From positions 1-20,203 of the IMG/VR virus record IMGVR_UViG_3300017786_000199: a stretch of 20,203 nt of DNA; one strand, 5' to 3'. Positions 1,279-19,292 of this stretch are shown in pieces; the first letter of the stretch is position 1, and each line of letters starts with the position of its first letter. Under the pieces are notes generated by a model. That model was given only the letters and a program-made list of their open reading frames with translations. It did not search any database and was not told the origin of the DNA. This stretch comes from a virus. Position numbers and translations under genes: made by a program.

Positions 1279-1302
1279 AATTAACACAAAAAAAATAAAT
1301 TA

Positions 1303-1318
1303 AGTTATCTTAATATAA
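1303..1318 (+). promoter_or_regulatory. Phage motif AGTTATCTTAATATAA before the tail operon
   Basis: This copy of AGTTAnnnTAATATAA ends 12 nt before the ATG at 1331 and is preceded by an A-rich tract (1276-1300). It is the only promoter candidate for the long tail operon 1331-8619 and lies back to back with the host-type minus-strand promoter. If TATAAG acts as a -10 box, the transcript would begin only a few bases before the start codon. Confidence 0.6.
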
Positions 1319-1330
1319 GATTGATTATTT

Positions 1331-2032
1331 ATGGAGTTTACTGCACCTGCAAGTTTAAGGGAGATTAAGTTGAGTCAATGGCAAAAGTATATTAATGTCT
1401 ACGACAAGAATAAGGATGATGAGAATGCTACTGAGTTTCTAAACAAAAAGGTATTAGAGATATTCTGTAACATAAAGTTATCAGACGTTGATAAGATAGG
1501 TTTAAGTGTATTTGACAATGCTTTAATCCACTTATCATCTGTACTGAATGAGAAACCAGAACTTGTACATAAGTTTAGTTTAAAGGGAACTGATGATGTT
1601 GTTGTTGAGTTTGGTTTGATACCTAACTTTGATAAAATGAGTTATGGTGAGTTTATAGATTTAGAGAAATATATGTTTGATAATGACAACTACCATAAAG
1701 CAATGGCAGTTCTTTACAGACCAATTAAGTTCAAGAGTAAAGATAAGTATCTTATACACGATTACAAGGGTACAGAGTATATGGCTGATGTAATGAGAGA
1801 CGCTCCATTAGACGCTGCACTTGGTGCAAGGGTTTTTTTTTATCGTTTAGCGACAAAATTAGGGAATTATACGATGGCTTATACACTCAAAGAGTTGCAG
1901 AAGAAACAGGAGGGTCGTCAGGACGAGCATTCGGTAAAAAATGGGGAGACTATCAAGCAATATTTACTCTCGCTGGAGAAGATGTTAGAAGAATCGGAGA
2001 AGTTACAGAACTTCCTTTACACCAATGTTTAA
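1331..2032 (+). CDS. Tail assembly chaperone, G-like product
   Basis: This 233-residue protein resembles conserved Bacteroidota phage proteins that fill the position of lambda gpG/T5-type tail assembly chaperones. Typical features are the N-terminal PASLREIKLSQWQKY region, the central FGLIPNFDKMSYGEFIDLEKY block (about residues 97-117), the AMAVLYRP block near residue 130, and a C-terminal VFFYRLATKLG helix. It would bind the tape measure and recruit tail tube subunits. The zero frame ends at TAA 2030-2032. A second, overlapping -1 frame stays open from 1783 to 2100 and looks coding from about 1840, so a share of ribosomes probably makes a longer G-T fusion. It is the first gene of the tail operon, directly after the motif at 1303. 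Assignment rests on family resemblance and genomic position. Confidence 0.8.
   Translation: MEFTAPASLREIKLSQWQKYINVYDKNKDDENATEFLNKKVLEIFCNIKLSDVDKIGLSVFDNALIHLSSVLNEKPELVHKFSLKGTDDVVVEFGLIPNFDKMSYGEFIDLEKYMFDNDNYHKAMAVLYRPIKFKSKDKYLIHDYKGTEYMADVMRDAPLDAALGARVFFYRLATKLGNYTMAYTLKELQKKQEGRQDEHSVKNGETIKQYLLSLEKMLEESEKLQNFLYTNV
1936..1942 (+). other. Candidate -1 ribosomal frameshift site A AAA AAT
   Basis: In the zero frame the sequence reads GTA AAA AAT GGG, so 1936-1942 is a canonical X XXY YYZ heptamer (A AAA AAT). Slipping back one base puts TGG next and leads into the T-like frame. A second candidate is the T9 run at 1833-1841 (T TTT TTT at 1834-1840). Either site yields a product of 256 residues. 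Only a weak downstream stem is visible (TCTC 1968-1971 with GAGA 1976-1979). Confidence 0.55.
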
Positions 2033-2100
2033 TGTATTTAGAGTTTATAAAAGAAAAATCAGAATTAGAAAGTAGAATGTTAAAACAAAAAATGAGATGA
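1942..2100 (+). CDS. T-like extension of the tail chaperone (-1 frame)
   Basis: This is the -1 frame part, with no start codon of its own at 1942. From the slippery site it reads WGDYQAIFTLAGEDVRRIGE, followed by a helical, charged end (…CLMYLEFIKEKSELESR…) that stops at TGA 2098-2100, 52 residues in all. This pattern (FGKKWG-Y near the start, then an LPLHQCL-LEF-KEK helix) is what I recall from the second tail chaperone protein of Bacteroidota phages. Its codons (GAA, GGA, GCA, AGA, ACA) look more like the rest of this phage than the zero-frame codons of the same DNA. A frameshift fusion is the simplest expression route. Separate initiation at ATG 2032 would make only 22 residues. It overlaps the next gene by four bases (ATGA). 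Confidence 0.7.
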   Translation, partial: WGDYQAIFTLAGEDVRRIGEVTELPLHQCLMYLEFIKEKSELESRMLKQKMR

Positions 2101-2555
2101 CACACGTTTACGACATATTAGACGTCATAAAAGACGAGTTATTAACTAACCCATCAGTAAATACTGTTACTTACGGAGATTTAGGTGATGTTGACTTAGA
2201 TAAGACAACTATGTTTCCATTATCGCATATGCTAATAGATAGTGCTAATTACAAGGAAAGAACAGTTGTTTTTGATATTAAGTTACTTTGTGCAGACATA
2301 GTTGATTACAATACTAAGAAATCTGATTACGAACTGTTTTATGGTAATGATAACTTACAAGACGTTATGAATACTCAGTTTGAGGTTATAAACTCTTTAA
2401 TAATGAAGTTGATGAGAGGTGATTTGTTTGAGATTAATTATCAAGTAACAACACAACCTGTTGCACAACCATTTAAAGAACGTTTTAGCAACGAATTAGC
2501 AGGTTGGAGTGTAGATATATCAATAGAGATTCCTAATGGCATAAGTATCTGTTAA
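2097..2555 (+). CDS. Putative tail terminator/completion protein, 152 aa
   Basis: The 152-residue protein shows patterns conserved in Bacteroidota siphophages: the early VNTVTYGDLGDVDLDK segment (residues 21-36), FPLSHMLI (about 40-47), a GNDN motif (about 82-85), and the C-terminal AGWSVDISIEIPN segment. Size, mixed alpha/beta character, and position directly after the chaperone and before a gp10-like gene suggest the protein that caps the tail tube and joins it to the head (lambda gpU-like role). The start ATGA overlaps the stop of the T-like frame, and the end overlaps the next ATG as TAATG, so translational coupling is likely. The exact role is inference. Confidence 0.6.
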   Translation: MTHVYDILDVIKDELLTNPSVNTVTYGDLGDVDLDKTTMFPLSHMLIDSANYKERTVVFDIKLLCADIVDYNTKKSDYELFYGNDNLQDVMNTQFEVINSLIMKLMRGDLFEINYQVTTQPVAQPFKERFSNELAGWSVDISIEIPNGISIC

Positions 2556-3052
2556 TGGAGGGAGAGAACCTAAAATTAGCCTTGAGAGAGGTTGGTAAGC
2601 TAATTAGAAAGAATCTAAAGCAAGAAGCTAAGAATGATAAGTTCAAGGCTTCTGGTAAATTAGATAGGTCTTTTAGGTATAGGGTTGAGGATAATGAGTT
2701 ATACATATTCGGAGAACAGTATGCAAATGCTTTATCTGATGGTATAAAAACTGACAGAACTTATAACAAGTCAAGCGAACAGTTTAGAAAATCTATTATA
2801 GATTGGGCAAAATCAAAGGGTATAACCCCAAAAAGAGATAAGAAAGGAAGGTTTACCTCTTATATGTCAATGGCTAACGCTATCACAAAAAGCATAAGAA
2901 GGAAAGGTATTTCTAAGAGATTTGGATATAAGGGTAGTGGATTTATACAAGCAGTACAAGAACAAACTAAAGAACAAATAAAAACAATATTAAAAGAAGG
3001 TTACAGAAAGGATATACTGTTAAGCCTTGATAAATTAAAATCAATTAACTAA
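2555..3052 (+). CDS. HK97 gp10-like neck/tail completion protein, 165 aa
   Basis: The protein has 165 residues, is strongly basic, with an N-terminal helix (LKLALREVGKLIRKNLKQEA) followed by an ASGKLDRSFRYRV segment. The order amphipathic helix, then SG-L-S-Y strand, then hydrophobic YIFGEQYANALSDGI is typical of the HK97 gp10/minor-capsid family of head-tail joining proteins. The middle carries a Lys/Arg-rich loop (residues about 85-105) and an RRKGI element. It overlaps the previous and next genes as TAATG at both ends. Structural neck role is inferred from pattern and position. A tail completion role is the alternative. Confidence 0.6.
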   Translation: MEGENLKLALREVGKLIRKNLKQEAKNDKFKASGKLDRSFRYRVEDNELYIFGEQYANALSDGIKTDRTYNKSSEQFRKSIIDWAKSKGITPKRDKKGRFTSYMSMANAITKSIRRKGISKRFGYKGSGFIQAVQEQTKEQIKTILKEGYRKDILLSLDKLKSIN

Positions 3053-4179
3053 TGGCAATAATAAACGTAAGAAGTCCGAAGTATGTGTCTATTGATGATG
3101 GTGCATTGTCTTATGCAGTATTAAGATTAAGTATTTGGACTGGTGCTTCATCTCCATCTCCAGCACCAATCTATATCATTCGTAAATCTGGTACTTATAT
3201 AGTACATTTTGAAATATCAGAATTAATAAGAGATTATTTAGACACAACATTTGATGGAAATTATAATGGTCAAGCGGTTTGGGTTACAACTACTTTGTTT
3301 GCTTATGATTCTGATGATAATGAGGTGGCAGATGATGGAGAAAGTTTTGTTGCTTTTGATGGTTACAACTATTTTGAAGAAAGTGCTAATGTTGATAACT
3401 CTTTAATGATTACAAATAGAAAGTTATTTGTTTTAGAAGATAATACATTTAGAGTTCCTATCTATACCGCAACAAGTCCAACAGTTACATTTTTAAAAGA
3501 TAACGAAATTGTAGGTAGTACATCATTTACACCAAGCAACCAAAGTTCAGAACAAATAAAGTATGTTTCTATTTATGGGGATGATACTAATTGGGATTCG
3601 TTTAAAGAAAGAGTTTTAGAAGATGGTGGTACAGATTACGAATCAAATAAATGTTTGGAAGCATATTTTAATGATTACTCAATAGGAGCAGTAGACAAAA
3701 TAGTTGTTTCGGATAGTGATGGTATTCAAACTATAAATGTAGAGATTTTAGAAGAATGTAAATACGAACCTAAAAAGGTAACGTTTGTAAATAAGTTTGG
3801 TGCTTTACAGGATATGTACTTCTTCAAAAAAGCAGTAGAAAGAATTAATGTTGAGAGAGAGTCTTATAAGTCAAATATATTAAATTCAAATATGGTTTAT
3901 AACTCAAGCAATCACGTTTACAGAGATTTTAACGTTATGGGTAGAGAATCGGTAACATTAAGTAGTGGTTTTTTAAGTGAAGAATATAACGAGGTGTTTA
4001 AACAGATGATGCTATCTGAAAAAGTATGGGTTACTAACATAACAGAAGATGGGGAACAAGTATTGCCAATCAATGTTAAGACAAGTGATATTACTTACAA
4101 GACTTCTTTAAACGACAAATTAGTAGAATACACAATAGAATTTGATAAATCATTCGATACTATAAATAATATAAGATAG
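3052..4179 (+). CDS. Conserved tail-region structural protein, 375 aa
   Basis: This 375-residue, mostly beta-strand protein is acidic and rich in Asp, Ser and Val, without signal peptide or membrane helix. It begins with INVRSPKYVSIDD and contains ISELIRDYLDTTFDG near residue 55. I recall similar proteins in Bacteroidota phages, at the same position before the large baseplate-like protein, but no function is assigned to them. It could be a distal-tail or baseplate hub component. Its start overlaps the preceding stop (TAATG) and its TAG is directly followed by the ATG of the 803-residue gene, so both are probably made together. Structural role is inferred from context. Confidence 0.55.
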   Translation: MAIINVRSPKYVSIDDGALSYAVLRLSIWTGASSPSPAPIYIIRKSGTYIVHFEISELIRDYLDTTFDGNYNGQAVWVTTTLFAYDSDDNEVADDGESFVAFDGYNYFEESANVDNSLMITNRKLFVLEDNTFRVPIYTATSPTVTFLKDNEIVGSTSFTPSNQSSEQIKYVSIYGDDTNWDSFKERVLEDGGTDYESNKCLEAYFNDYSIGAVDKIVVSDSDGIQTINVEILEECKYEPKKVTFVNKFGALQDMYFFKKAVERINVERESYKSNILNSNMVYNSSNHVYRDFNVMGRESVTLSSGFLSEEYNEVFKQMMLSEKVWVTNITEDGEQVLPINVKTSDITYKTSLNDKLVEYTIEFDKSFDTINNIR

Positions 4180-6591
4180 ATGCAGATAACTCAGTTATAC
4201 ATAGATGGTCAAAGAGTTGATATGTTTGATGATGTTGGTGTTACTATTACTGACACTATAAAAGACGTTAGAGATATAAGTAAAGTTTTTACAGAATACT
4301 CTCAAACATTTAGTTTACCAGCAAGTAAAACCAATAATAAACTGTTTAAACATTATTACAATAATGATATTCAGAATGGTTTTGATGCAAGGATAAGAGT
4401 ACCTGCAAGTATAGAACTTAACTCTATACCTTTTAGGAATGGGTATATTAAACTTGAAGGAGTTGACCTAAAGAACAATACTGCACATACATACAGAATA
4501 ACTTTCTTTGGTAACACTATATCGTTAAAAAACCTTTTAGGAGATGACTTACTATCTTCTTTGTCTTGGTTGGATAACTTTAGTACAGAACAAGATGGAA
4601 CTAATTTGCTATACGACAAGGATTTTGTAGAAAAGTATTTAACAACATCTGTATATAATAAGTTTGTTGATGGAATACGTTACCCTAACGCAATACAAAT
4701 ACCTTTAATCACACATACTCAAAGGCTTTATTATGATAGCAACACTGCTACAGATGAGGTTGATAGTGGAGACTTGCATTGGCACGGAGGAGGTGGTCAA
4801 CATATACACGGAGTTAAATTCAATGAATTAAAATACGCTTTAAGATTAAGTGTTATAATAAAGGCTATAGAAGAGAAATACGGATTAACCTTTAGTGATG
4901 ATTTCTTTAAGGGAGGAGATTCTTCTTTTGATAATTTATATATGTGGTTACATAGAGCTAAAGGAAAGGTAACAAGTGGAGAGCAGTTAGAGACATCTAC
5001 TTATTCGGTCAATGATTTCACAGATTATACCTCTTACAATGGTAGTAGTATGGAAAACAGTATTCTTACATTGAGTGATGGATATTACTTTTCTAATCAA
5101 GTTTTACAGTTAAGTTTATCAGTTAACTCTTCTTATAGCTCTGTTCCTTATTCCGTTGTTGTATTTAGAGATGGTGTTTCTATTTATAGTGCTTCAAATA
5201 TAACAGATAGTATTCAAAACTTATCTATTTCTGTATCTAACAACTCATCTTATAGTATACAAATAACATCTAATCAGACAATAGGTTTTGATAGAGCTAT
5301 TTGGAATTACTCTTATTTCAATAGTGATATAGATTCTTTTGTAAGCGAAAACTATACAAGTTCAAGTTTTACTATTCCTGTTTCTATTAATTTTAATATT
5401 ACACAACAAATACCTAAGATGAAAGTGTTAGACTTCTTAACTTCATTATTTAAGATGTTTAACTTGGTTGCATACGTTGAAGGGAGCGAAATGGTTGTAA
5501 AAACATTAGATGACTTTTATGATAATCCATCAGCAGATTCACCTTATGACATAACAAAGTATGTGGATGTTAATTCATCACAAGTTAATTCAGCATTACC
5601 TTTTAGAGAAGTAGTTTATACTTATAAAGGATTAGGTACTTTCTTAGCAAAGCAACACGAACAGTTATTTAACAAGGATTGGGGTAAGGAAGAGTATAAA
5701 GGCTCTGATGGTATTATTTTATCTCAAGGTATATTTAAAAACGAGATACCTTTTGAGCATATGAAATTTGAGCGATTAATAGACTTAAATACAAGTTCTT
5801 TAACAGACATACAATGGGGTTTCTGTGTTGATGATAACCAAGATAGTTATATCGGAAATCCTTTGATTTTCTATATGACACCTAAAACATTACCCACAGG
5901 TGGTAAAATATCATTTGTTTATGAGGTAAATGGAAATAACGAAGCTGTAAATCATAAAGAGATTTCATCTTATTATGTACCTTCTAATTCAGATTTTCAA
6001 GCTACTCAAGAAGAGGATAGACAATCTATAAACTTTAGTGCTGAAAAAGATGAATGGGATTTAGTTACTACAAGGAATGTTTTATTTAATAACTACCATA
6101 AAAACTATATTTCAAATGTTTTTGATGAGTCTAACAGATTAAAAAAGATAAGTGCCTATTTGCCATTGAGAATACTATACAAATACACATTAGCAGATAG
6201 ATTTATTTATTCAGGTAAAAGTTATAAAATTAACTCAATAGAGACAGATTTTTATACAGGTAAATCAGAGATAGAGTTAATTAACGACTATGTTAATATT
6301 CCTATTGACTTTGAAGCACCAGCTCCACCTACTAATTTACAATTAGTTCAAGGCTCAGAGACTTCTACAAGTTTCTCAATAGAGTGGACTAAATCAGTAG
6401 ACAACGATGTTGTAGGTTATAACATAGATTTAAATCAAGGAGATATAATTCTCGCAACAGGTAATGTAGATACATACGAAATAACAGGATTATCTGGTCA
6501 AACAACATATACAGTTTATGTAAGTGCATTTGATGCTTCTGGGAACGAATCAACTCTTGCAGGTCCAATAACGGCAAATACAACACAATAA
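4180..6591 (+). CDS. Large tail tip/baseplate protein with C-terminal FN3 domain, 803 aa
   Basis: The protein has 803 residues. The N-terminal part (1-270) has the pattern EYSQTFSLPASKTNNKLFKHYY (in part, residues about 39-58), typical of a conserved Bacteroidota phage tail protein. Residues 200-210 form a His-rich loop, HWH-GGGGQ-HIH. Residues about 270-390 are Ser/Asn/Tyr-rich and beta-stranded, resembling an inserted Ig- or lectin-like domain. Residues 400-700 return to a tail-associated-protein-like region. The C-terminus (about 708-803) is a fibronectin type III domain, with PPTNLQLVQG, the IEWTKS strand and the YTVYVSAFDASGNES strand. It lies between other tail genes and overlaps the following small gene by one base. 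It probably forms the tail tip and may bind host surface sugars. Domain calls are by eye. Confidence 0.65.
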   Translation: MQITQLYIDGQRVDMFDDVGVTITDTIKDVRDISKVFTEYSQTFSLPASKTNNKLFKHYYNNDIQNGFDARIRVPASIELNSIPFRNGYIKLEGVDLKNNTAHTYRITFFGNTISLKNLLGDDLLSSLSWLDNFSTEQDGTNLLYDKDFVEKYLTTSVYNKFVDGIRYPNAIQIPLITHTQRLYYDSNTATDEVDSGDLHWHGGGGQHIHGVKFNELKYALRLSVIIKAIEEKYGLTFSDDFFKGGDSSFDNLYMWLHRAKGKVTSGEQLETSTYSVNDFTDYTSYNGSSMENSILTLSDGYYFSNQVLQLSLSVNSSYSSVPYSVVVFRDGVSIYSASNITDSIQNLSISVSNNSSYSIQITSNQTIGFDRAIWNYSYFNSDIDSFVSENYTSSSFTIPVSINFNITQQIPKMKVLDFLTSLFKMFNLVAYVEGSEMVVKTLDDFYDNPSADSPYDITKYVDVNSSQVNSALPFREVVYTYKGLGTFLAKQHEQLFNKDWGKEEYKGSDGIILSQGIFKNEIPFEHMKFERLIDLNTSSLTDIQWGFCVDDNQDSYIGNPLIFYMTPKTLPTGGKISFVYEVNGNNEAVNHKEISSYYVPSNSDFQATQEEDRQSINFSAEKDEWDLVTTRNVLFNNYHKNYISNVFDESNRLKKISAYLPLRILYKYTLADRFIYSGKSYKINSIETDFYTGKSEIELINDYVNIPIDFEAPAPPTNLQLVQGSETSTSFSIEWTKSVDNDVVGYNIDLNQGDIILATGNVDTYEITGLSGQTTYTVYVSAFDASGNESTLAGPITANTTQ

Positions 6592-6746
6592 TGATAAGAC
6601 AAACATTAGAATTACTAAGAAATAACGAGTGGTTAATTGAAGACAAGGATGTTAATATAGCTAAAGGGCTATATGAAATGCCTTCAAGTTTTAGAGAGTT
6701 AAAAACAAGTATAAAAAGAAAAAAACTAACAAATGGCAAACGATAA
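6591..6746 (+). CDS. Small basic protein, 51 aa, between tail tip and tape measure
   Basis: ATG 6591 overlaps the preceding stop as TAATG, and the frame runs to TAA 6744-6746, overlapping the tape-measure start (6733) by 14 bases. The 51 residues begin MIRQTLELLRNNEWLIEDKD and end with a Lys/Arg-rich tail (SIKRKKLTNGKR). Overlaps at both ends fit the pattern of genuine genes in this operon, and the frame fills what would otherwise be an untranslated gap of 141 bases. I do not recognise the family. A basic 51-residue protein ahead of the tape measure could be a chaperone or a minor tail component, but this is only position-based. Confidence 0.55.
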   Translation: MIRQTLELLRNNEWLIEDKDVNIAKGLYEMPSSFRELKTSIKRKKLTNGKR

Positions 6747-8619
6747 TACAATATTATTTAAGATAGAGGTAGATGATAAGGGAGCAGTAACTACTCTAAA
6801 GTCCACAGTTAAGGGTTACCAAGATTTAAACTTAACAACTCACAATGCTCAAAAATCTGCTGAAAAATTAAACCAAACTATAGCTAATACAGGTAAAGGA
6901 GGAACTTTAACAGGTGTAAAACTAACTGAAAAAGAATATCAAAAATTACTTAAAACCCAACATCAAACCACAAGTGCAGTTGGCGCAAGTACATCTGCAA
7001 CTTTAGAACTTGGTCGTGTTTTATCTGATATGCCTTATGGTATTCGAGGTGTTGCCAATAACTTACAACAATTAGCATCTAACTTATTCTTTATGTCTAA
7101 GGCTACTGATGCTGCTACAGGTAAGACTATTGGTTTAATGGGTGCATTCGGAAACCTTTTAAAAGGTCTTATAGGCCCTGCTGGAATACTTATAGCTTTT
7201 CAAGGAATAATAGCTTTGTTTGACTTTTTAAGTCAAGGAGCTAAGGATGTGGAAAAGTCTGTAAGTGATTTAAATTCTGAATTTCAAGATTTAGCAACAA
7301 TTCTTACTGATAATGTTAATGTTTCTATAGAGGATTATCTCAAATTAGTTAAACAAAAAACAGATTTAGATGATAAACTAACTAAGTCAAGTAAAAGATT
7401 GAAGGAGATTGAAGAGGAACTACAAGGTATTCAATATAGTAGGGAAAGAACAAATAATTTTGAGCTATTACAAACTTTAAGAAAACAAGAGATTGACCTT
7501 CAAGGAGAAATATCAACTATATATGAAACAAGTGCTAACGATATAAATGAATATAAGAAAGCTAAAGATGATTTAACAAAAGCAGATGAAGATAGTTTAA
7601 AAGGTTTAAAAAATACATTAAGTGAATTAAAGAAAGAAAGAGAACTTAGAGCAAAATCACCAGAAGATTACAAAAGACTATCTATTGAAATACAAGAATT
7701 TCAAGATAAAATTGATAAAATTGAAGCAAAAAATAAAGGTAAGAGAGAAAGAGTAACCACTTTAGTAACACCAGATAGCATAAAAAAACAAGTTAAACTT
7801 GGTAAAAGTTTAATAAAGGCGGTAGCAAAGGTTATGGGTGTTGAAATAGGTAAAAACCCTATAGACTTAAATAAATTAATAGATGTTGAGTTAAGTGATG
7901 AAACTAAAGCCGCTATAGCCGAGTACAATAAAAAACTTAAAGCAGAAATGCTTTTAACAGATAAATTAAAAGGAGCTGAACAAGTTGTTGAAACGTCAAA
8001 AGAAGCGTTAGGTTCTATGACTGATTTTATGAATGCTCAATTTCAAAGAGAAATGGTTATTGAGTCTAATAAAACAAATGCCTTAAATGAACAACTTAAT
8101 CAGAGGCTACTCAATGAAAACTTATCTAAAGATGAAAGAGCCAAGATACAAAATGAAATAGCTTTAAATGATGAGAAATTAAGAAAGAAACAAGAAAAGA
8201 TAGCTAAAAAGCAGTTTGATATGAATAAGGCTTCAAATATAGCAAGTGCTTTAATGGACACATCTGCTGCGGCTATAGGTGTTATGAAAGATGCTAAAGG
8301 AGGTTTCTTTGCGAGACTATCACAAGCATTACCTACTATTGCATTTGGTTTAGCTCAAGTAGCAACAATTTCAAGACAGAAATTCCAAACTTCAGCAGCT
8401 AAGACACCTATACGGACAACTGCTGATGGAGGTGCTGGTGGTGCAACATCTGAACGAGCAGAACCTTCGTTTAACATAGTGGGTAGGTCTAACGACAACT
8501 TACTTATAAACGCTATACAAGCACAATTGGGTAAGCCATTAAAAGCATACGTAGTATCAAGAGATGTTACTACCCAACAACAGTTAGATGGTATGATTGT
8601 AGGTCAAGCAGGTACTTAA
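6733..8619 (+). CDS. Tape measure protein, 628 aa
   Basis: The protein has 628 residues. The N-terminal part (1-120) is helical and polar. It is followed by a hydrophobic stretch (about residues 135-170, Gly/Ile/Leu-rich, including LIGPAGILIAFQGIIALFDF), then long charged coiled-coil-like helices (about 180-500) rich in Lys, Glu and Leu, and a second hydrophobic segment (about 510-555). This layout is typical of siphovirus tape measures, which set tail length and are ejected into the host envelope. By the usual 0.15 nm per residue, the tail would be near 95 nm, if no processing occurs. It closes the operon that begins at 1331. No lysozyme or peptidase domain is visible at the C-terminus. Confidence 0.8.
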   Translation: MANDNTILFKIEVDDKGAVTTLKSTVKGYQDLNLTTHNAQKSAEKLNQTIANTGKGGTLTGVKLTEKEYQKLLKTQHQTTSAVGASTSATLELGRVLSDMPYGIRGVANNLQQLASNLFFMSKATDAATGKTIGLMGAFGNLLKGLIGPAGILIAFQGIIALFDFLSQGAKDVEKSVSDLNSEFQDLATILTDNVNVSIEDYLKLVKQKTDLDDKLTKSSKRLKEIEEELQGIQYSRERTNNFELLQTLRKQEIDLQGEISTIYETSANDINEYKKAKDDLTKADEDSLKGLKNTLSELKKERELRAKSPEDYKRLSIEIQEFQDKIDKIEAKNKGKRERVTTLVTPDSIKKQVKLGKSLIKAVAKVMGVEIGKNPIDLNKLIDVELSDETKAAIAEYNKKLKAEMLLTDKLKGAEQVVETSKEALGSMTDFMNAQFQREMVIESNKTNALNEQLNQRLLNENLSKDERAKIQNEIALNDEKLRKKQEKIAKKQFDMNKASNIASALMDTSAAAIGVMKDAKGGFFARLSQALPTIAFGLAQVATISRQKFQTSAAKTPIRTTADGGAGGATSERAEPSFNIVGRSNDNLLINAIQAQLGKPLKAYVVSRDVTTQQQLDGMIVGQAGT

Positions 8620-8620
8620 A

Positions 8621-8645
8621 ATAAAACAAAATAAAACAAAATAAG
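8621..8645 (+). repeat. Short A-rich tandem repeat before the protease promoter
   Basis: The decamer ATAAAACAAA occurs twice in tandem (8621-8640), followed by ATAAG that runs into the motif at 8644. Similar A-rich DNA (AATAAAACAAAAATAAA) precedes the weaker motif at 12004, and an A-rich tract precedes the one at 1303. It may act as an upstream promoter element. Confidence 0.45.
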
Positions 8646-8659
8646 TTAACATAATATAA
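8644..8659 (+). promoter_or_regulatory. Phage motif AGTTAACATAATATAA before the protease
   Basis: This is a full match to AGTTAnnnTAATATAA, ending 11 nt before ATG 8671, in the short gap after the tape measure. It would open a new transcription unit for protease and the small Cys-rich protein. No terminator is seen between the tape measure and this site. Confidence 0.6.
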
Positions 8660-8670
8660 ATAAGTTAAAT

Positions 8671-9711
8671 ATGGAAGGATTAGATACAATAGAATTATTT
8701 ATAGACGAATCAAAAGAGGAAGATGGAATTGAAGCTATATCTTTAGTTGAGTTCCCTGCTATCGAAGAGAACTTTGTAGCTTTAAGTAAACATAAAGTAG
8801 AGTTTAAGACTGTTGATTCAGAAAAGAGAATAATCGTTGGTTTAGCATTAGTGCCAAATAAGCTAATATACAGACGTAAGGGAGACTATGAGTACAATAT
8901 AACATTCTCTACCGAAACTGTAAGAAAAGCGTCTGAGCTATACTTAAAACGTCTTAAAAACAATAATACAACATTAGAACACGCTGAGTTTACAGGAGGT
9001 GTATCTGTTATAGAATCTTGGATAGTAGAAGACCCAGAGAAAGACAAAACTGCTTTATATGGATTGAATGCAGTAAAAGGTGCTTGGGCAGTTACTATGA
9101 AGATAGATAATGATGAGGTATGGGAAGATGTTAAGCAAGGTAAATACTTAGGATTAAGTATCGAAGGTATGTTTAGCGATAACGTAGAAGATATTGAAGA
9201 GGTTGAGGCAAGTAGTGTATTAGAAGAGATAAAGAGACTAATAATTGAAGACGAACAATTAAAAGAGGATTTAGTAGAATATCCTCACGTTATGTATAAT
9301 CCTGAGACAGGTGAAAGTATTGAAATAACTAACGAAGAGGAACACGAAAAATACACTAAGAAAGGTTGGGTACATACTAAACCTAAGAAATATAGAGAGC
9401 AAGAATTAAAGTCTTATAGCGACTATCCACAAGGTGCAACAAATAACGCTAAGAGAGCATTAAAGTACAAGAAAGAGAATGGAAGTTCTTGTGGTACAAG
9501 TGTTGGTTGGACAAGGGCAAGTCAATTAGCTAACAGAGAGCCTTTAAGTAGAGATACTATTGCAAGAATGGCATCATTCAAAAGACATCAGCAACATAAA
9601 GACGTACCTTATTCAGAAGGATGTGGTGGTATTATGTGGGATGCTTGGGGTGGTTCAGCAGGTGTTAATTGGGCAATCAGTAAATTAAAAAAGATAGACA
9701 ATGAGAGCTAA
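8671..9711 (+). CDS. XkdF-like capsid maturation protease with C-terminal modules, 346 aa
   Basis: Residues about 1-170 match the XkdF-type putative serine protease of phage heads: IISLVEFPAI-like start (AISLVEFPAI, 22-31), IVGLALVPNKLIYRR (55-69), His104 in TLEHAEF, and Ser163 in GLSIEG. His and Ser are the likely catalytic pair. Such proteases cut scaffold and capsid proteins during head maturation. Extra modules follow: a short MYNPETGESIEITN element with GWVHTKP (208-238), and a separate domain at 250-342 with AKRALKYKKENG, VGWTRASQLA, LSRDTIARMASFKRH and GIMWDAWGG motifs. I recall this last domain attached to phage head proteins in many combinations, without a known role. It is followed by the scaffold and capsid genes, as expected. 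The protease call is by family resemblance. Confidence 0.75.
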   Translation: MEGLDTIELFIDESKEEDGIEAISLVEFPAIEENFVALSKHKVEFKTVDSEKRIIVGLALVPNKLIYRRKGDYEYNITFSTETVRKASELYLKRLKNNNTTLEHAEFTGGVSVIESWIVEDPEKDKTALYGLNAVKGAWAVTMKIDNDEVWEDVKQGKYLGLSIEGMFSDNVEDIEEVEASSVLEEIKRLIIEDEQLKEDLVEYPHVMYNPETGESIEITNEEEHEKYTKKGWVHTKPKKYREQELKSYSDYPQGATNNAKRALKYKKENGSSCGTSVGWTRASQLANREPLSRDTIARMASFKRHQQHKDVPYSEGCGGIMWDAWGGSAGVNWAISKLKKIDNES

Positions 9712-9835
9712 ATATTGCAAATGTAAGAATACTTACTCTATAGAATGTGATAAGTACTCAAAGAAAAGAAAGTGTAGTGCAGATGAGTATTGGAAGCAAG
9801 GTATAGGCTCAATTCACAAGCAAGAAGAGGAGTAA
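9701..9835 (+). CDS. Small Cys-rich protein, 44 aa
   Basis: ATG 9701 lies inside the end of the protease gene (11-base overlap) and the frame ends at TAA 9833-9835. The 44 residues begin MRAKYCKCKNTYSIECDKYS and carry four Cys at positions 6, 8, 16 and 25, in a Lys-rich background. The spacing C-x-C-x7-C-x8-C could bind one zinc ion, but it does not match a named zinc-ribbon that I know. The overlap, phage-like codons and position in a protease-scaffold-capsid block favour a real gene. Function unknown. Confidence 0.5.
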   Translation: MRAKYCKCKNTYSIECDKYSKKRKCSADEYWKQGIGSIHKQEEE

Positions 9836-9859
9836 AAATAAGACAGTAAATTTTTAAAT

Positions 9860-9875
9860 AGTTATATTAATATAA
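9860..9875 (+). promoter_or_regulatory. Phage motif AGTTATATTAATATAA before the scaffold/capsid unit
   Basis: This is a full match to the motif, ending 10 nt before ATG 9886. The inner 14 bases, TTATATTAATATAA, are a perfect palindrome. It is the only candidate promoter for the scaffold and major capsid genes, the most strongly needed products. The leftward copy at 380-395 shares its first 15 bases. Confidence 0.6.
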
Positions 9876-11330: not shown

Positions 11331-11360
11331 GGGTGGGTAATTGCTACCTACCCTTTTTTT
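11331..11360 (+). terminator. Rho-independent terminator after the major capsid gene
   Basis: A 9-bp stem, GGGTGGGTA (11331-11339) with TACCTACCC (11345-11353), including one G-T pair, has a 5-nt loop and is followed by seven T (11354-11360). It would end most transcripts from the scaffold/capsid promoter. The next gene has no visible promoter, so some read-through is expected. Confidence 0.85.
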
Positions 11361-11387
11361 ATAACTAATAAATAAAAAATAAATATT

Positions 11388-11927
11388 ATGGCTTGTGATA
11401 TTACTTTAGGTAGAACAGAACCTTGTAAAGATAGTGTTGGAGGAATCAATGCTGTTTATTTTGTAAATTTTGGAGATATAACCAGTATAACATACGATGG
11501 TGCTTTAACAGATGTAATTGATACTGTTGGTGGTTCTCCAAATGCTTACAAATACGAGGTTAGAGGAAACTCTACCTATACAGAAAACATTCAATCAAGT
11601 AGAGAGAATGGAACTACTGCTTTTGAGCAAGTGTTAGAGTTGACACTTAAAAAATTAACTAAAGAAGACCACAATACTATTAAATTATTATCTTTCGGAA
11701 GACCAAACATTCTTATCGAGGACAATAACGGAAATGTATTCTTAGCTGGAGCTGAGTATGGTGCTGACGTAACAGGAGGTACTATAGTAACAGGAGGAGC
11801 TATGGCTGATATGAGTGGATATACTTTGAGTTTTACAGGTATGGAAAAAGCACCAGCAAACTTTTTGTTCGCAGGGGCAGATGCTACTTCTACTATTACA
11901 AATGCAGGATTTACTATTGTTTCATAA
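11388..11927 (+). CDS. Probable major tail (tube) protein, 179 aa
   Basis: The 179-residue protein begins MACDITLGRTEPCKDSVGG. Blocks such as NGTTAFEQVLELTLKKLT (about residues 66-83), LSFGRPNILIEDNNGN, TGGTIVTGGAMADMSGYTL and FTGMEKAPANF fit a conserved all-beta protein found after the capsid gene in Bacteroidota siphophages. Size, beta character and pattern suggest the tail tube subunit. No sheath gene is present, so the tail is probably non-contractile. It is bracketed by strong terminators, fitting a product needed in large but separately set amounts. The alternative is a capsid decoration protein. Confidence 0.65.
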   Translation: MACDITLGRTEPCKDSVGGINAVYFVNFGDITSITYDGALTDVIDTVGGSPNAYKYEVRGNSTYTENIQSSRENGTTAFEQVLELTLKKLTKEDHNTIKLLSFGRPNILIEDNNGNVFLAGAEYGADVTGGTIVTGGAMADMSGYTLSFTGMEKAPANFLFAGADATSTITNAGFTIVS

Positions 11928-11950
11928 TAGTACTTTTAGCAAATCAATTA

Positions 11951-11976
11951 AACCCTACCATTTGGTGGGGTTTTTT
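11951..11976 (+). terminator. Rho-independent terminator after the tail tube gene
   Basis: The stem AACCCTACC (11951-11959) pairs with GGTGGGGTT (11964-11972), with one T-G pair and the loop ATTT, then runs into further T residues (to 11976). It separates the capsid/tube unit from the portal unit. Confidence 0.85.
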
Positions 11977-12003
11977 ATTAAATAAAACAAAAATAAATTA
12001 TTT

Positions 12004-12019
12004 AGTTATCATAGTATGT
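12004..12019 (+). promoter_or_regulatory. Degenerate phage motif AGTTATCATAGTATGT
   Basis: The left half, AGTTATC, is the same as at 1303. The right half, TAGTATGT, differs from TAATATAA at three places and contains the ATG of the following gene. It therefore could not serve that gene at the usual spacing, though it could serve the portal gene at 12378. Weak call. Confidence 0.3.
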
Positions 12020-14144: not shown

Positions 14145-14653
14145 AAGCATTATTCATAACAATACAAGATTTAAAAGCTAAGTCAATAATTAGTGGTAGT
14201 ACTGATGCTGACAAGCTAATTCACTTTATTGAGGTGGCACAGGATATACACATCCAAAATTATTTAGGTGGAAACTTATACGACAAGTTACAGGCTTTAA
14301 TAATATCAGGTGATATAGACTTACCTGCTAATAGCGATTATAAGAGCCTTAGAGACGTTTATATTAAGCCAATGTTGATTTGGTTTACTCAAGCTGAATA
14401 CTTCCCTTTTTCTATGTTTAAAATTGATAATGGAGGTATATCGAAGCATAGAGGGGAAGATTCGGATTCTGTTAATTATAGTGATGTTGATAGAATGATG
14501 AGCAAGATAAATGATAGAGCTGAATTTTATACGAAGAGGTTCTTAGATTACATTTGTTTTAACAGTAATAAATATCCTGAGTACAATAATAATAGTAACG
14601 GAGATATGTATCCTGATAAAGATGCTAATGAGTTTTCAAGTTTTGTTTTGTAA
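14141..14653 (+). CDS. Head-tail connector-like protein, 170 aa
   Basis: The protein has 170 residues and is helical in its first 130. It contains SGSTDADKLIHFIEVAQDIH (in part, residues about 18-37), LGGNLYDKLQALI, and a YIKPMLIWFTQAEYFPF block (about 70-86), with a hydrophilic Asn-rich C-terminal tail. This fits small helical head-completion proteins that bind under the portal (gp6/DUF6712-like in my recollection). It follows the portal with a 4-base overlap (ATGA), the expected location. The family name is from memory and unverified. An alternative is another neck protein. Confidence 0.6.
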   Translation: MKALFITIQDLKAKSIISGSTDADKLIHFIEVAQDIHIQNYLGGNLYDKLQALIISGDIDLPANSDYKSLRDVYIKPMLIWFTQAEYFPFSMFKIDNGGISKHRGEDSDSVNYSDVDRMMSKINDRAEFYTKRFLDYICFNSNKYPEYNNNSNGDMYPDKDANEFSSFVL

Positions 14654-14772
14654 TGAATGTAAAAAAAAAGACATATAAGACAAAAACAGTTAACATAATA
14701 AAGCTAAATAGTTTTTATAACGAGTTTAACAAAGACAAGAAGAAGAAAGATGGCAAACGAAATATACGATAG
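14653..14772 (+). CDS. Very small basic protein, 39 aa
   Basis: ATG 14653 overlaps the connector stop as TAATG, and the frame ends at TAG 14770-14772, 23 bases into the next gene. The 39 residues (MNVKKKTYKTKTVNIIKLNS…) include 14 Lys or Arg. Its start arrangement mirrors the 51-residue gene at 6591, which also ends shortly after the following start codon. The composition is partly that expected of A-rich DNA, so it could be a chance frame. The degenerate phage motif at 14688 lies inside it. Confidence 0.35.
   Translation: MNVKKKTYKTKTVNIIKLNSFYNEFNKDKKKKDGKRNIR
14688..14703 (+). promoter_or_regulatory. Phage motif variant AGTTAACATAATAAAG before the fibre region
   Basis: The first 13 bases are the same as in the motif at 8644, and only the last three differ. 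It lies 46 nt before ATG 14750, farther than the 10-12 nt seen elsewhere, and inside a small reading frame. It may drive the fibre and lysis genes, which otherwise have no visible promoter. Confidence 0.35.
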
Positions 14773-14937: not shown

Positions 14938-16194
14938 ATGGCAAAACCAAAAATAGCATTAGTACCATCCGCTCAAGGGAGCAAGTTTTATTCCGTACTA
15001 CCATCGAGTGGTGTAGGGGATTTTAACTTTACACGTAGTGGTTCAGCAACAAGAATAAATAAAGATGGACTGATAGAAACAGTTGGAAACGGAGTATCAA
15101 GATTAAACTATCCAATGATTGATGGTGTTGTAAGTGGATGCCCACATCATATTTTAGAGCCACAGAGGACTAATATATTTCCTTATTCAAGTGCATTTAT
15201 TAACATTAATGATTTTTCTTTAACAGTAACAGATAATGCGTCTATAAGTCCAGAAGGGTCTAATAATGCAACAAGTATAATTCCAAATGTATCAAATACT
15301 GTTCATTATTTATCATTATCAAATAATTCTACTGGCACAGTTACTTTTAGTATATATGCTAAAGCGAATGGGTATAATTATTTATTTTTACACTTATACG
15401 ATGGGTCTAATGGTAGGGCTTGGTTTAATTTAGAGAATGGTGTTATTGAAACTAATGATTCATCTATTTCTGCTAACATTGAAAAAATGCCTAACGGATG
15501 GTATAGGTGTATAATAACAAGGGTTTTATCTGGAAATTTAATACAAGCTGATATTGCAGTTTCCAATAGTGATAATACAACAAGTTTTAGTGGAGACGGA
15601 ACAAGTGGAATCTACATCTACGGCGCACAATTAGAACAAGGTTCATACCCAACAAGCTACATCCCAACTAACGGAAGTGCAGTTACTCGTTCAGCAGAAA
15701 CTGCTACTGGTTCTGGAGATGCAGCTACGTTTAACGATTCAGAGGGTGTTTTAATGGCAGAGATTAGTAGGCAAGATGATGATGTATCAACAACTGCTTT
15801 ATCTATAAATAATGGTGCGTTAGCTAATAGTGTTAATATTTATTATTATAGTACAAATGTTTTGTATTTTGATATTTTTAGTGGTGGTGCAACAGTTAGT
15901 GGGGATATTAACATAGATACATATAATTCAAACAAGATTGCCTTAAAGTATAAAAGCGGAGATATATCTTTATATGTTAATGGGTTTGAGTTAATAACTA
16001 AAACAAATGCAATTTCATTAAGTGGATTAAACGAATTAGATTTTAATTTTGGTGCAGGAAATCAACCTTTCTATGGAAACACTAAACAAATACAATACTA
16101 CGATTCAGTATTAACAGATAGCGAATTAGAAACACTAACATCTTGGGTATCTTTTTCAGATATGGCTGAAGGACAGCTTTATTCGGTTGAATAG
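14938..16194 (+). CDS. Fibre/receptor-binding protein 1, lectin-like, 418 aa
   Basis: This 418-residue protein is the first of three paralogues. Its unique N-terminus (1-30, MAKPKIALVPSAQGSKFYSV) is followed by a shared block TRSGSATRINKDGLIETVGN (about 32-51), an LEPQRTNIFPYSSAF element, a carbohydrate-binding-like beta domain (about 85-240) ending in GDGTSGIYIYGAQLEQGSYP (219-238), a shared NDSEGVLMAEI hinge (about 264-274), and a second concanavalin-like beta domain with the C-terminal YDSVLTDSELETLTSW. Such proteins bind host surface glycans. The shared GDGTSG/NDSEGVL parts use GC-richer codons than the variable middle. An HNH endonuclease gene follows 35 bases later. Confidence 0.65.
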   Translation: MAKPKIALVPSAQGSKFYSVLPSSGVGDFNFTRSGSATRINKDGLIETVGNGVSRLNYPMIDGVVSGCPHHILEPQRTNIFPYSSAFININDFSLTVTDNASISPEGSNNATSIIPNVSNTVHYLSLSNNSTGTVTFSIYAKANGYNYLFLHLYDGSNGRAWFNLENGVIETNDSSISANIEKMPNGWYRCIITRVLSGNLIQADIAVSNSDNTTSFSGDGTSGIYIYGAQLEQGSYPTSYIPTNGSAVTRSAETATGSGDAATFNDSEGVLMAEISRQDDDVSTTALSINNGALANSVNIYYYSTNVLYFDIFSGGATVSGDINIDTYNSNKIALKYKSGDISLYVNGFELITKTNAISLSGLNELDFNFGAGNQPFYGNTKQIQYYDSVLTDSELETLTSWVSFSDMAEGQLYSVE

Positions 16195-16229
16195 TATTAA
16201 TTATAAGAAAAATTCACTATATTAGTAAT

Positions 16230-16772
16230 ATGGAAAATTGGAAAGACATAAAAGGATACGAGGGCAAATATCAAGTTAGTGATTTAGGTAGAGTTAAATC
16301 GTTAAAAAGATGGGTAGATAATAAAGGTAATGGTGGTTATTTTGTAAAAGAAATGATATTAAAATCAAATATAAAAAATGAACGCTACCCAATTGTTGGA
16401 TTAACAAAAAATAACACAAGAAGAAAATTTAGAGTTCATCAATTAGTAGCTATGGCTTTTTTAAATCACAAACCTTGTGGGCATAAATTAATAGTTGACC
16501 ATATAGATAATAATTCTTTAAACAATAATGCAGAAAACCTACAAATAGTAACAAGTAGAGTTAACACTACTAAAGATAGAAAAGGTTATTCAAGTAAATA
16601 TGTAGGTGTTTACTATAATGATAAAGGAATTAATAGATGGAGAGCCACAACAAGCGTTAATGGAAAGGTTGTAAATTTAGGTTCTTTTGATACAGAAGAA
16701 AGAGCATCAATAGCATACAATTTTGCATTGACGCAATTAGATAAATTAACAGAATATAGTATAACAAAATAG
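16230..16772 (+). CDS. HNH homing endonuclease (NUMOD4-HNH-AP2 type), 180 aa
   Basis: The protein has three recognisable parts. The N-terminal NUMOD4 motif is WKDIKGYEGKYQVSDLGRVK (4-23). The HNH nuclease core has His70 in RVHQLVAMAFLN, Asp90-His91 in VDHIDNN, and Asn99, Asn100 and Asn103 in LNNNAENLQIVT. The C-terminal AP2-like DNA-binding segment has SKYVGVYYND, WRATTSVNGK and GSFDTEERASIAYN (122-164). It is a free-standing nuclease without a visible intron, placed between two paralogous fibre genes and ending two bases before the second. Such nucleases spread by cutting DNA lacking them. It has no phage motif and probably depends on read-through. Confidence 0.9.
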   Translation: MENWKDIKGYEGKYQVSDLGRVKSLKRWVDNKGNGGYFVKEMILKSNIKNERYPIVGLTKNNTRRKFRVHQLVAMAFLNHKPCGHKLIVDHIDNNSLNNNAENLQIVTSRVNTTKDRKGYSSKYVGVYYNDKGINRWRATTSVNGKVVNLGSFDTEERASIAYNFALTQLDKLTEYSITK

Positions 16773-16774
16773 AT

Positions 16775-18049
16775 ATGGCACAAACTTATAAATTCGGTAG
16801 AGGGACTTGGGCGACAAAAGAGGGTTCTACTTTAGCATATAATGACGAGAACGAAAACTATAAACCTCTACCTTTCAATTTTGAAAGAGATAGTATTGCT
16901 ACAAGAGTAAACAAAGAGGGATTAATAGAGGTAGTAGGTAATGATATACCAAGAATAGATTATAAAGATAGTGCAGATGGTGTTTTATTGTTAGAAGAAG
17001 GTAGTAGTAATAGAGTTCCTTGGAGTGAAGATATAAATAATTCTGCTTGGGCAAAAATTGCAGTAACAGTTGATGCAAATCAAATAATATCTCCAGACGG
17101 AACACAAAACGCAGATTTAATAACTGAAACAACAGCAAATTCACAGCATAGAATTAGTGATATAGTTACGTTATCAACTGGTGTTGAACACACAATAAGT
17201 GCTTGGGTAAAACCAAACGGCACTAAGTATGTACGTTTAAGAATAGAAAATGCGGCTGTAGGTTCTGGTCAAGTAGACGTATATTTTGATATGGAAAATT
17301 TATTGCCTTCACTGTCCAATGGATCTATTAAAAAATATTCTAATGGTTGGTACAGATTATCAGCAACTGGAACCCCTAATAATGCGGCTAGTGTTGCTAT
17401 TGTTGGTTTAGCACCAGATCTTGGTTTGTCAAGTTATGTAGGAGATGGTGTAAGCGGTGCATATGTTTGGGGTATACAAGTAGAACAGTCAAGTTATGCA
17501 ACATCCTACATCCCAACCTCTGGCTCAACAGTACAACGTGCTTCTGAAACTGCTAATGGTTCTGGTAATAGTGAAGTGTTTAATGATAGTGAAGGAGTAT
17601 TGTTTGCTGATATAGCTGGTTTAGTTAATGATAATAATTTTAAAGCAATAAGTGTTTCTGAATCAAACGTAGATAATAGGATTACTTTAAGTTTGTATCA
17701 AGGTAGTTTATTCGCATATATTGCTGATGGAGGTGTTGGTCAATTTAATGTAAGTCAATCAGTTGGTTCTGTATTAGAATTTCACAAAACAGCTATTAAA
17801 TACAAAGCTAATGACTGTGCTTTTTGGATTGATGGTTTTGAAGTAGCTATAAATACATCACCTACTACAATGCCAAGTGGATTAAAAGAATTAGCATTTG
17901 ACAAAGGAAATGGAGCAGATGATTTCTACGGAAAGACAAAAGAACTTGGCTACTACGATACAATCCTAACAGACGAAGAATTAGAATATATAACAAGTTA
18001 TCGTTCATTAAACGAATTAGTAACAGAATTAAACTTAAACACATTATAA
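16775..18049 (+). CDS. Fibre/receptor-binding protein 2, lectin-like, 424 aa
   Basis: This 424-residue protein is paralogous to its neighbours. Its N-terminus (KFGRGTW, then LAYNDENENYKPLPFNF, to about residue 35) is shared with protein 3 but not protein 1, so 2 and 3 probably attach to the virion in the same way. Shared blocks follow: ATRVNKEGLIEVVGND, LLLEEGSSNRVPWSED, GDGVSGAYVWGIQVEQSSYA, NDSEGVLFADI, and FYGKTKELGYYDTILTDEELE near the end (in part). The two beta-rich domains in between are strongly diverged. Probably a virion glycan-binding fibre. It begins two bases after the homing endonuclease stop and ends one base before protein 3. Confidence 0.65.
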   Translation: MAQTYKFGRGTWATKEGSTLAYNDENENYKPLPFNFERDSIATRVNKEGLIEVVGNDIPRIDYKDSADGVLLLEEGSSNRVPWSEDINNSAWAKIAVTVDANQIISPDGTQNADLITETTANSQHRISDIVTLSTGVEHTISAWVKPNGTKYVRLRIENAAVGSGQVDVYFDMENLLPSLSNGSIKKYSNGWYRLSATGTPNNAASVAIVGLAPDLGLSSYVGDGVSGAYVWGIQVEQSSYATSYIPTSGSTVQRASETANGSGNSEVFNDSEGVLFADIAGLVNDNNFKAISVSESNVDNRITLSLYQGSLFAYIADGGVGQFNVSQSVGSVLEFHKTAIKYKANDCAFWIDGFEVAINTSPTTMPSGLKELAFDKGNGADDFYGKTKELGYYDTILTDEELEYITSYRSLNELVTELNLNTL

Positions 18050-18050
18050 G

Positions 18051-19292
18051 ATGGCGAATACATTAAAATTTGGTAACGGAGAATGGTATGGAAAGAAAGA
18101 TACTATCCTTGCTTACAATGATGAAAATAACAACTACAAGCCATTACCTTTTGACTTTAGTAGAGGAAGTTCTGCTACTGTTGTAAATAAAGATGGTTTA
18201 ATTGAAACTGTTGGTAGTGGACAACCAAGAATAGATTATAAGGATAATACTAAAGGTGCTTTGTTGTTAGAGCCGAGTAGGAGTAATTTAGTTACTTATT
18301 CGGAGGACTTTAGTAATGGTGTTTGGAATATAGGTGGTGCTACTACAATAATATTAGATAATTTACTATCTCCAGATGGAGAACATAGTTCATATAAACA
18401 AGTAGAAAACAATACTATAAATAGTTTTTCAACAAGATACTCATCATCTATTTCATATATAAGTGGATTAAAATACATCACATCTATTTTTGCTAAAAGT
18501 GATAATAGAAATTTAATGATTAGGTCTTATAATGGTTCATCAGATATAGACACAATATTTGATTTATCTAATGGGACTATTTTGTCTGGTTCAACTGGAG
18601 AAATTAAGGATTATGGTAATGGATGGTATAGATGTAGTCATACAATTACTGCACAATCAACAATAAATACAGTTTATGCAGCAAGTTTTGTGTTGGTAAA
18701 TGGTTCTTCATATAGTTATCAAGGAGATGGAACAAGTGGTGTTTACATTTACGGAGCGCAATTAGAACAAGGCAGTTACGCTACATCGTATATTCCTACA
18801 TCTGGAGGTGTAGTAACAAGGATAGTTGATATTTGTAATAATGGAGGTAATGAACAAGTGTTTAATGATTCAGAGGGTGTTTTGTATGCAGAAGTAAGTG
18901 CTTTTATTGGTGCTGGTGGAGGAACAAGAAGAATTGAATTGTCTAATGGGTTAAATCCATCTCAATATGTTAGATTACAGATTACTAATGGAGATGGTAG
19001 TTTATACTCGATAGTAAATAATGGTACTGAACAATTTTTATTTAACTACACATCTTTTAATGCAACACAAAATAATAAAATAGCAATTAAATATAAAGAA
19101 AATGATTTTGCTTTATGGGTAAATGGTATTGAAGTAGGTTCAAGTAATATAGGTAATACATTTGCAAATGGTGTTTTAACACAAGCAAATTTATCTCCAA
19201 CAAGTTTTTATTTCTACGGCAAAACAAAAGAACTACAAGTATTCACAACTGCATTATCAGACCAAGAATTACAAGCATTAACAACAATATAA
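18051..19292 (+). CDS. Fibre/receptor-binding protein 3, lectin-like, 413 aa
   Basis: The third paralogue has 413 residues. It shares with protein 2 the N-terminal anchor (KFGNGEW, LAYNDENNNYKPLPFDF). With protein 1 it shares the DNA-level and protein-level similarity of GDGTSGVYIYGAQLEQGSYA (in part) and NDSEGVLYAEV. Only a single base separates it from protein 2. The variable parts are Ser/Asn/Tyr-rich and beta-stranded, and the end has FYGKTKELQVFTTALSDQELQ. It thus looks like a mosaic of the other two. A role in host recognition is inferred from the domain pattern and location before lysis genes. Confidence 0.65.
   Translation: MANTLKFGNGEWYGKKDTILAYNDENNNYKPLPFDFSRGSSATVVNKDGLIETVGSGQPRIDYKDNTKGALLLEPSRSNLVTYSEDFSNGVWNIGGATTIILDNLLSPDGEHSSYKQVENNTINSFSTRYSSSISYISGLKYITSIFAKSDNRNLMIRSYNGSSDIDTIFDLSNGTILSGSTGEIKDYGNGWYRCSHTITAQSTINTVYAASFVLVNGSSYSYQGDGTSGVYIYGAQLEQGSYATSYIPTSGGVVTRIVDICNNGGNEQVFNDSEGVLYAEVSAFIGAGGGTRRIELSNGLNPSQYVRLQITNGDGSLYSIVNNGTEQFLFNYTSFNATQNNKIAIKYKENDFALWVNGIEVGSSNIGNTFANGVLTQANLSPTSFYFYGKTKELQVFTTALSDQELQALTTI

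Follow-up and report, generated by a model that had tools for sequence, protein, structure and literature searches.

A probable two-part promoter at the starts of structural units in phages of marine Flavobacteria

The IMG/VR record IMGVR_UViG_3300017786_000199, 20,203 bases long and analyzed here as a whole (the window), is classed as a virus record and encodes head, portal and tail-type genes. Several of its structural units are preceded by a short recurring motif that we describe as part of a two-part element: A-N-A-C, 15–16 nt, [AC]GTTA, 7 nt, and ATA or ATG, a pattern present at 18 of 19 non-redundant sites in the window and its relatives. We propose, with a probability of about 0.7, that these sites are late promoters read by host RNA polymerase together with a phage-encoded sigma factor of the extracytoplasmic function (ECF) type, and that some of them give rise to leaderless mRNAs. 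What was computed is the two-part element with its strand, place and conservation, a bimodal spacing to start codons, and the presence of a sigma gene in long relatives.

A conserved two-part element ahead of late units

The exact sequence AGTTANNNTAATATAA occurs on the plus strand at 1303, 8644 and 9860 and nowhere else in the window, and read backwards it has no occurrence. These copies, listed in an original prediction made from the window letters and their reading frames, are real and end 12, 11 and 10 nt ahead of the ATGs at 1331, 8671 and 9886, which open the tail, protease and scaffold/capsid units. The exact pattern was itself read off these three sites, and window matches with up to two mismatches show no enrichment (6 vs. 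5.9 expected from shuffles); with loose matches at chance level, the case therefore rests on exactness, place and conservation. The window capsid protein has close relatives in viral contigs (at least 598 of 600 stretches), and the best 80 of these loci were searched along with the window. All 31 exact matches lie on the late strand, 9–12 nt before the ATG of an open reading frame (ORF), although many of the loci are closely related and several are near-copies of the window. In more distant relatives the same genes carry changed but related sequences at the place of the motif, and in the most distant ones an ATTATA- or ATTGTA-type sequence stands directly against the ATG.

The upstream A-N-A-C was scored at 19 non-redundant sites, derived from 112 that had an ORF or lay at a conserved opposite-strand place and offered sufficient upstream sequence. 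Its C falls at −16 or −17, a position picked after inspection, in 18 of the 19, compared with a mean of 1.3 and a maximum of 6 in shuffles, 0 of 2000 of which reach 18. A scan of the window with the two-part pattern, learned partly from the window sites themselves, returned 1303, 8644, 9860, 12004, 14688 and minus-strand 395, against a mean of 0.2 and a maximum of 4 in 200 random sequences. At the tail unit, the −35-like A-N-A-C (1284–1287, plus strand) stands 15 nt ahead of a −10-like core made up of AGTTA (1303–1307) and TCTTAATATAA (1303–1318 in full). The protease unit has A-N-A-C at 8624–8627, a 16-nt spacer and AGTTA with ACATAATATAA at 8644–8659, and the scaffold/capsid unit A-N-A-C at 9841–9844, located by the scan, and AGTTA with TATTAATATAA at 9860–9875, all on the plus strand.

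The variant at 12004, also part of the original prediction, is real and conserved. Here the scan places A-N-A-C at 11985–11988, and the motif runs into the start codon of the portal unit (AGTTATCATAGT followed immediately by ATG), with AGTTA at 12004–12008, 7 nt, and the ATG at 12016 (plus strand, 12004–12018). The second predicted variant, at 14688, lies inside a small ORF (~14653–14772), reads GGTTA or shows further changes in more distant relatives, and is probably a coincidence, although a well-spaced A-N-A-C is present there; the site was set aside. An additional window site lies on the minus strand at 395–380 (core 395–391, A-N-A-C 414–411), with a predicted RNA start at ~383 and no nearby ATG-started ORF of at least 40 codons.

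Spacing to the start codon and the predicted RNA start

The relaxed core [AC]GTTAWNHTWNTAT matched 97 times, in 22 of 22 further records, compared with 5 times for the reversed pattern. The 29 records of clade I contain 124 sites of this core, of which 102 lie on the late strand and 22 on the opposite one. Among the late-strand sites, GTTA is followed by an ATG at exactly 7 nt in 37, including 12004, and at 21–26 nt in 62, and 3 lack an assigned ORF; with distances of 3–39 nt allowed, none of the 99 sites with an ORF has its ATG at 8–20 nt. A fixed distance, as originally claimed, is thus a property of the three exact copies and not of all sites, since distances are bimodal. In the 7-nt class the ATG occupies the position that ATA holds in the longer-spacing class. 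The 7-nt class has three kinds of members: homologs of window gene 12016, the putative small terminase gene, and the tail gene of one relative (G040); the tail gene of the other listed records lies at 22–24 nt. The 129-aa putative small terminase is so named solely because its gene is directly ahead of the terminase large subunit gene, and 8 of 8 records gave no match to Terminase_2 (PF03592). Counted by offset from the start codon, GTTA in clade I is commonest at 7 (12 vs. a mean of 3.8). A de novo expectation-maximization motif search over the 60 nt upstream of every ORF was dominated by coding composition and by stretches rich in T.

In the model we propose, the promoter would consist of the −35-like A-N-A-C, a 15–16-nt spacer and the −10-like [AC]GTTA, and the first RNA base would be the conserved A that lies eight nt past GTTA, or one a few nt upstream of it. 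In genes with the 7-nt spacing, such as window 12016 and the putative small terminase of its relatives, this A would be the A of the ATG, leaving the message leaderless or nearly so, whereas genes of the 1331, 8671 and 9886 type would have leaders of ~14–19 nt. For these three genes the predicted starts are ~1315, ~8656 and ~9872, with leaders of ~16, ~15 and ~14 nt. Late timing, recognition by the phage sigma factor, start position and leaderless translation are what we infer from this arrangement.

The original prediction had placed the −10 elsewhere, at TAATATAA, with RNA starting 3–6 nt before each ATG and the first genes of the three units nearly leaderless. Within the motif, TANTAT is indeed well conserved, and it looks like a −10 box. 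Site 12004, however, belongs to the 7-nt class, which makes TATAA a very unlikely −10, since the transcript would miss the ATG: at this site, its relatives and six sites of the isolated phage P12024S, RNA would start inside the ORF. The ATG would be lost or untranscribed at 37 sites, and none of the six P12024S genes has a usable in-frame start nearby. A-N-A-C, moreover, would stand 23–24 nt from TAATAT, compared with 15–16 nt from AGTTA. We therefore regard this geometry as improbable. With [AC]GTTA as the −10, the first genes of the three units would have leaders of ~14–16 nt, and the leaderless unit of the window is predicted to be the one at 12016.

All six P12024S genes with the 7-nt spacing lack an upstream in-frame ATG, GTG or TTG, and their next start lies 14–81 codons downstream. 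Among representative N-termini of clade I, 3 of 11 have an upstream alternative start, and 11 of 11 have their next downstream start 15 or more codons away. Differences were counted by codon position from codon 2, replacing counts by codon position made without codon alignment, which were uninformative. For the putative small terminase they amount to 32/6/103 in 5 distinct copies and 50/6/102 in 7 copies, indicating a frame that is coding from codon 2; those of the 12016 family (five codons; 89/24/42) show no coding pattern by themselves. Collectively, the 7-nt ATGs look like true starts.

The same register is kept in P12024S and P12024L, isolated phages of Nonlabens, and in a third lineage with another core, clade II. 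In P12024S, 6 of 6 sites, for which the 7-nt spacing was a selection condition, read AAAAC, 16–17 nt, CGTTA, 7 nt, ATG. Among 42,050 k-mer tests made on the same phage free of that condition, the top rank goes to CGTTA at offset 7 (Bonferroni 0.03) and the third to AAAAC at offset 29 (Bonferroni 0.13). The leading k-mers of clade II are TTATA at offset 5 (Bonferroni 2.6e-10) and ATTAT at offset 6 (Bonferroni 8.5e-10). When viral contigs were scanned with the P12024-type two-part pattern, 21 matches were obtained in 15 stretches, 3 of the matches coming from one 35,652-base record; 19 begin an ORF that has 60 or more codons or continues past the contig end, compared with 17% of random ATGs, and the two failing matches are identical to each other. 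In two P12024-like contigs (L213 and L223), the gene directly after the sigma gene itself starts at a two-part promoter with 7-nt spacing.

These data bear on two readings in which the motif is no promoter. Chance resemblance in AT-rich spacers, kept through common descent, would fit the loose matches of the window, which are at chance level; it is already disfavoured by the common register of lineages with different cores and by the collection-wide search, in which 19 of 21 matches precede such ORFs or run off the contig, and we consider it very improbable. We give equally little credence to a translation-initiation element of Bacteroidetes mRNAs lacking Shine-Dalgarno sequences. The motif does lie near start codons, and start context is reported to matter in F. 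johnsoniae (PMC6847099), but against such an element stand the two separate distances to the ATG, the second element upstream, the conserved opposite-strand copy without an ORF, and the different general start context of these phages (TAAAA at offset 9–10 and AAATT at 0).

The empty range of 8–20 nt suggests that intermediate leaders are selected against. A broader scheme is conceivable, although we would sooner bet against it: in at least three flavobacterial phage lineages with diverged sigma factors and −10 elements, the sigma factor would put several late start codons at the RNA 5′ end, with leaders either absent or at least ~14 nt long, an arrangement that the Shine-Dalgarno-independent Bacteroidetes ribosome may make workable, and one opposite-strand copy would drive a conserved untranslated late RNA.

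A phage-encoded sigma factor as candidate reader

In the proposed reader, the core of the host RNA polymerase would be joined by a two-domain ECF-type sigma factor that the phage itself encodes. The annotations of P12024S_33 and P12024L_35 both include sigma-70 region 2. In a first set of 21 records, 9 of the 9 that reach 28 kb have sigma homologs, of 157–182 aa, compared with 0 of 12 shorter ones; in a second set of 22 they occur in 9, including 6 of 6 of at least 28 kb that were not picked by a sigma query. Both sets combined, an ECF-like sigma gene is present in 15 of 15 related records that reach this threshold, itself drawn after inspection, and were not picked by sigma. The 20-kb window lacks such a gene and is evidently a fragment, because related records reach 30–40 kb. 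Its nearest long relative, G022, has two sigma copies in a 58-kb contig (L175–L177) made up of two similar, non-identical halves ~37 kb apart, perhaps a chimera of two related phages. Another record (G041:C1:2192-2720) has its sigma homolog spread over two reading frames, through a sequencing error or because the gene is broken.

The sigma-2 domain PF04542 was found in 7 of 21 records at E ≤0.1, 4 of 21 scoring above the curated cut-off. In a PDB search, a profile of the family matched the ECF sigma factors SigE, SigW and SigL (E 2e-4 to 5e-3), aligning over residues 4–163, nearly the whole length of the profile, and over both domains. The sigma-4 domain remains putative: the helices of a structure model fit, but sigma-4 models of Pfam gave no match in the phage protein, only weak helix-turn-helix matches being seen. 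A search by tblastn of one sigma against isolated phages found none, though P12024S and P12024L carry a diverged one. A scan described for two ECF groups allowed spacers of 15–17 nt and 3–6 nt from the end of the −10 to the start (PMC10880074). With [AC]GTTA as the −10, the spacing in our sites would suit an ECF-type sigma factor; with TAATAT the spacer would be 23–24 nt. The original prediction is supported where it called for a late promoter specific to the phage and lacking the host −7 box, probably read by a phage-modified polymerase; long relatives encode a sigma-like protein.

Several observations weigh against this interpretation, beginning with the choice of the A-N-A-C position and of the 28-kb threshold after inspection. 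The only scored site to lack a correctly placed A-N-A-C is that on the opposite strand in G029, with its C shifted by one base (the opposite-strand sites of G005 and of the window do carry the element), and the sites are related by descent, so that counts overstate their independence. In clade I, the top 14 of an unbiased positional 5-mer test reflect general start context and do not include the late motif, and clade II lacks a clear upstream element in a 28-row listing that includes evident false matches. G038, at 27.5 kb, shows no sigma homolog, whereas G006 carries one and none of the three cores is seen before its late units. The structure model is of moderate quality (predicted local distance difference test score, pLDDT, 74; predicted template modeling score, pTM, 0.40), and its best Foldseek matches, although ECF sigma structures, reach template modeling (TM) scores of 0.3–0.4 only. 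Finally, window gene 11388 follows a terminator-like hairpin yet lacks a copy of the late element.

In a rival reading, the same two-part promoter would be read by host polymerase with another phage activator or modification, the phage sigma factor serving other genes. Recognition by the sigma factor is inferred, and G006 has a sigma gene without a clear motif; on the other hand, the two elements are spaced like a sigma promoter, and the sigma gene is found in 15 of 15 long records. We consider another activator or modification unlikely and retain the phage ECF-type sigma factor as the probable reader.

Genomic setting, known systems and significance

The host-type −7 box TATATTTG does precede the divergent minus-strand genes (1254–1247, a sequence match), as had been noted originally, in line with the TTTG/TAnnTTTG promoter of the Bacteroidetes primary sigma factor (PMC6847099). 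TAnnTTTG occurs within 100 nt upstream of 1 of 15 late-motif genes in clade I compared with 43 of 145 others, and of 0 of 5 in P12024 compared with 9 of 21; this rarity is not significant per group (p 0.07 and 0.13), and the value of 0.016 comes from pooling afterwards. The window has 73 sigma-70-type matches, below the 96.5 of shuffles, and 12 terminator-like sites vs. 5.4 expected. One two-part element, that at 12004, lies 30 nt after a terminator-like hairpin with a T run (11950–11973, plus strand), and another in the divergent region shared with the host-type −7 box. A further terminator-like hairpin follows the capsid gene (11331–11388).

The 22 opposite-strand sites comprise 13 at one conserved place, window 395, and 9 scattered ones, none with a nearby ORF of at least 40 codons. 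Downstream of the conserved site, a 210-bp block (395–186, minus strand) is shared by 15 of 43 records including the window, in one case over 87 nt only. Some of its substitutions and a 3-base gap look codon-like, and it may represent an untranslated RNA or a gene remnant. Searches of the window and of two stretches from relatives against Rfam yielded nothing at curated scores (best E 0.56), and Pfam had no match for two translations of the block. Elsewhere in the window, three similar tail-fibre-like ORFs stand in a row (14938–19292; starts 14938, 16775 and 18051), with an HNH endonuclease gene (16230) after the first.

The window capsid protein has 33%-identical relatives in P12024S and P12024L, and a capsid relative is encoded in 3 of 27 candidate stretches of assembled genomes, namely metagenome-assembled genomes (MAGs) assigned to Polaribacter, Flavobacteriaceae and Woesearchaeota. 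Its occurrence in Nonlabens phages and flavobacterial MAGs makes a flavobacterial host likely. The homolog in the Woesearchaeota chromosome record (L228, CP070803.1) is 55% identical to the window protein and possibly reflects a binning or assembly error.

Phage sigma-dependent late promoters, leaderless phage mRNAs and −10 elements beside an ORF are each already known separately. Phage sigma factors with middle/late promoters are described for phiEco32 (gp36) and phage 7-11 (gp47), where, as here, the phage encodes a sigma factor and late units are headed by a short conserved element; start sites in phiEco32 are 6–8 bp downstream of its element, and the 7-11 promoters are bipartite with a 16-nt gap (PMC8948821). 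Unlike our phages, these infect another host phylum, their consensus sequences are tAATGTAtA and GTAAtg-16-aCTA, and sigma dependence was established in vitro, whereas here it is a prediction; the main text of that paper does not use the word "leaderless" (PMC8948821). Middle and late mRNAs without leaders are likewise described for the Thermus phage phiYS40, in another phylum and, according to a review, from RNA, whereas ours are predicted from sequence (PMC3594737). A −10 a few bp before the start codon is taken to mark leaderless genes in Deinococcus-Thermus and of "TA-led" genes; there it is TANNNT and read by a host sigma factor, whereas here it is [AC]GTTA or ATT[AG] and the reader a putative phage ECF-type sigma factor (PMC12340547, PMC3160421). 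In F. johnsoniae most transcripts are described as leadered, host leaders averaging 33 nt (PMC6847099), and phage AR9 is described with long leaders (PMC5312081). A full-text literature search found no title or abstract opening describing the present promoters, most subscription literature being outside its coverage.

If the proposed model is correct, phages of Bacteroidetes would gain a defined late-transcription switch, a phage ECF-type sigma factor with its promoter, and an unusual mode of translation start in a phylum without Shine-Dalgarno sequences. The choice between no leader and one of at least ~14 nt would amount to a natural experiment on how near a start codon can lie to the RNA end, and the isolated Nonlabens phages P12024S and P12024L make the promoter model testable. 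The pattern can also help to mark late units and to correct start codons in uncultured marine phages. Thus, a group of phages infecting marine Flavobacteria probably marks the starts of its structural blocks with a two-part promoter of its own, read by a self-encoded sigma factor, and at some genes the promoter lies so near to the start codon that the mRNA most likely opens with it.

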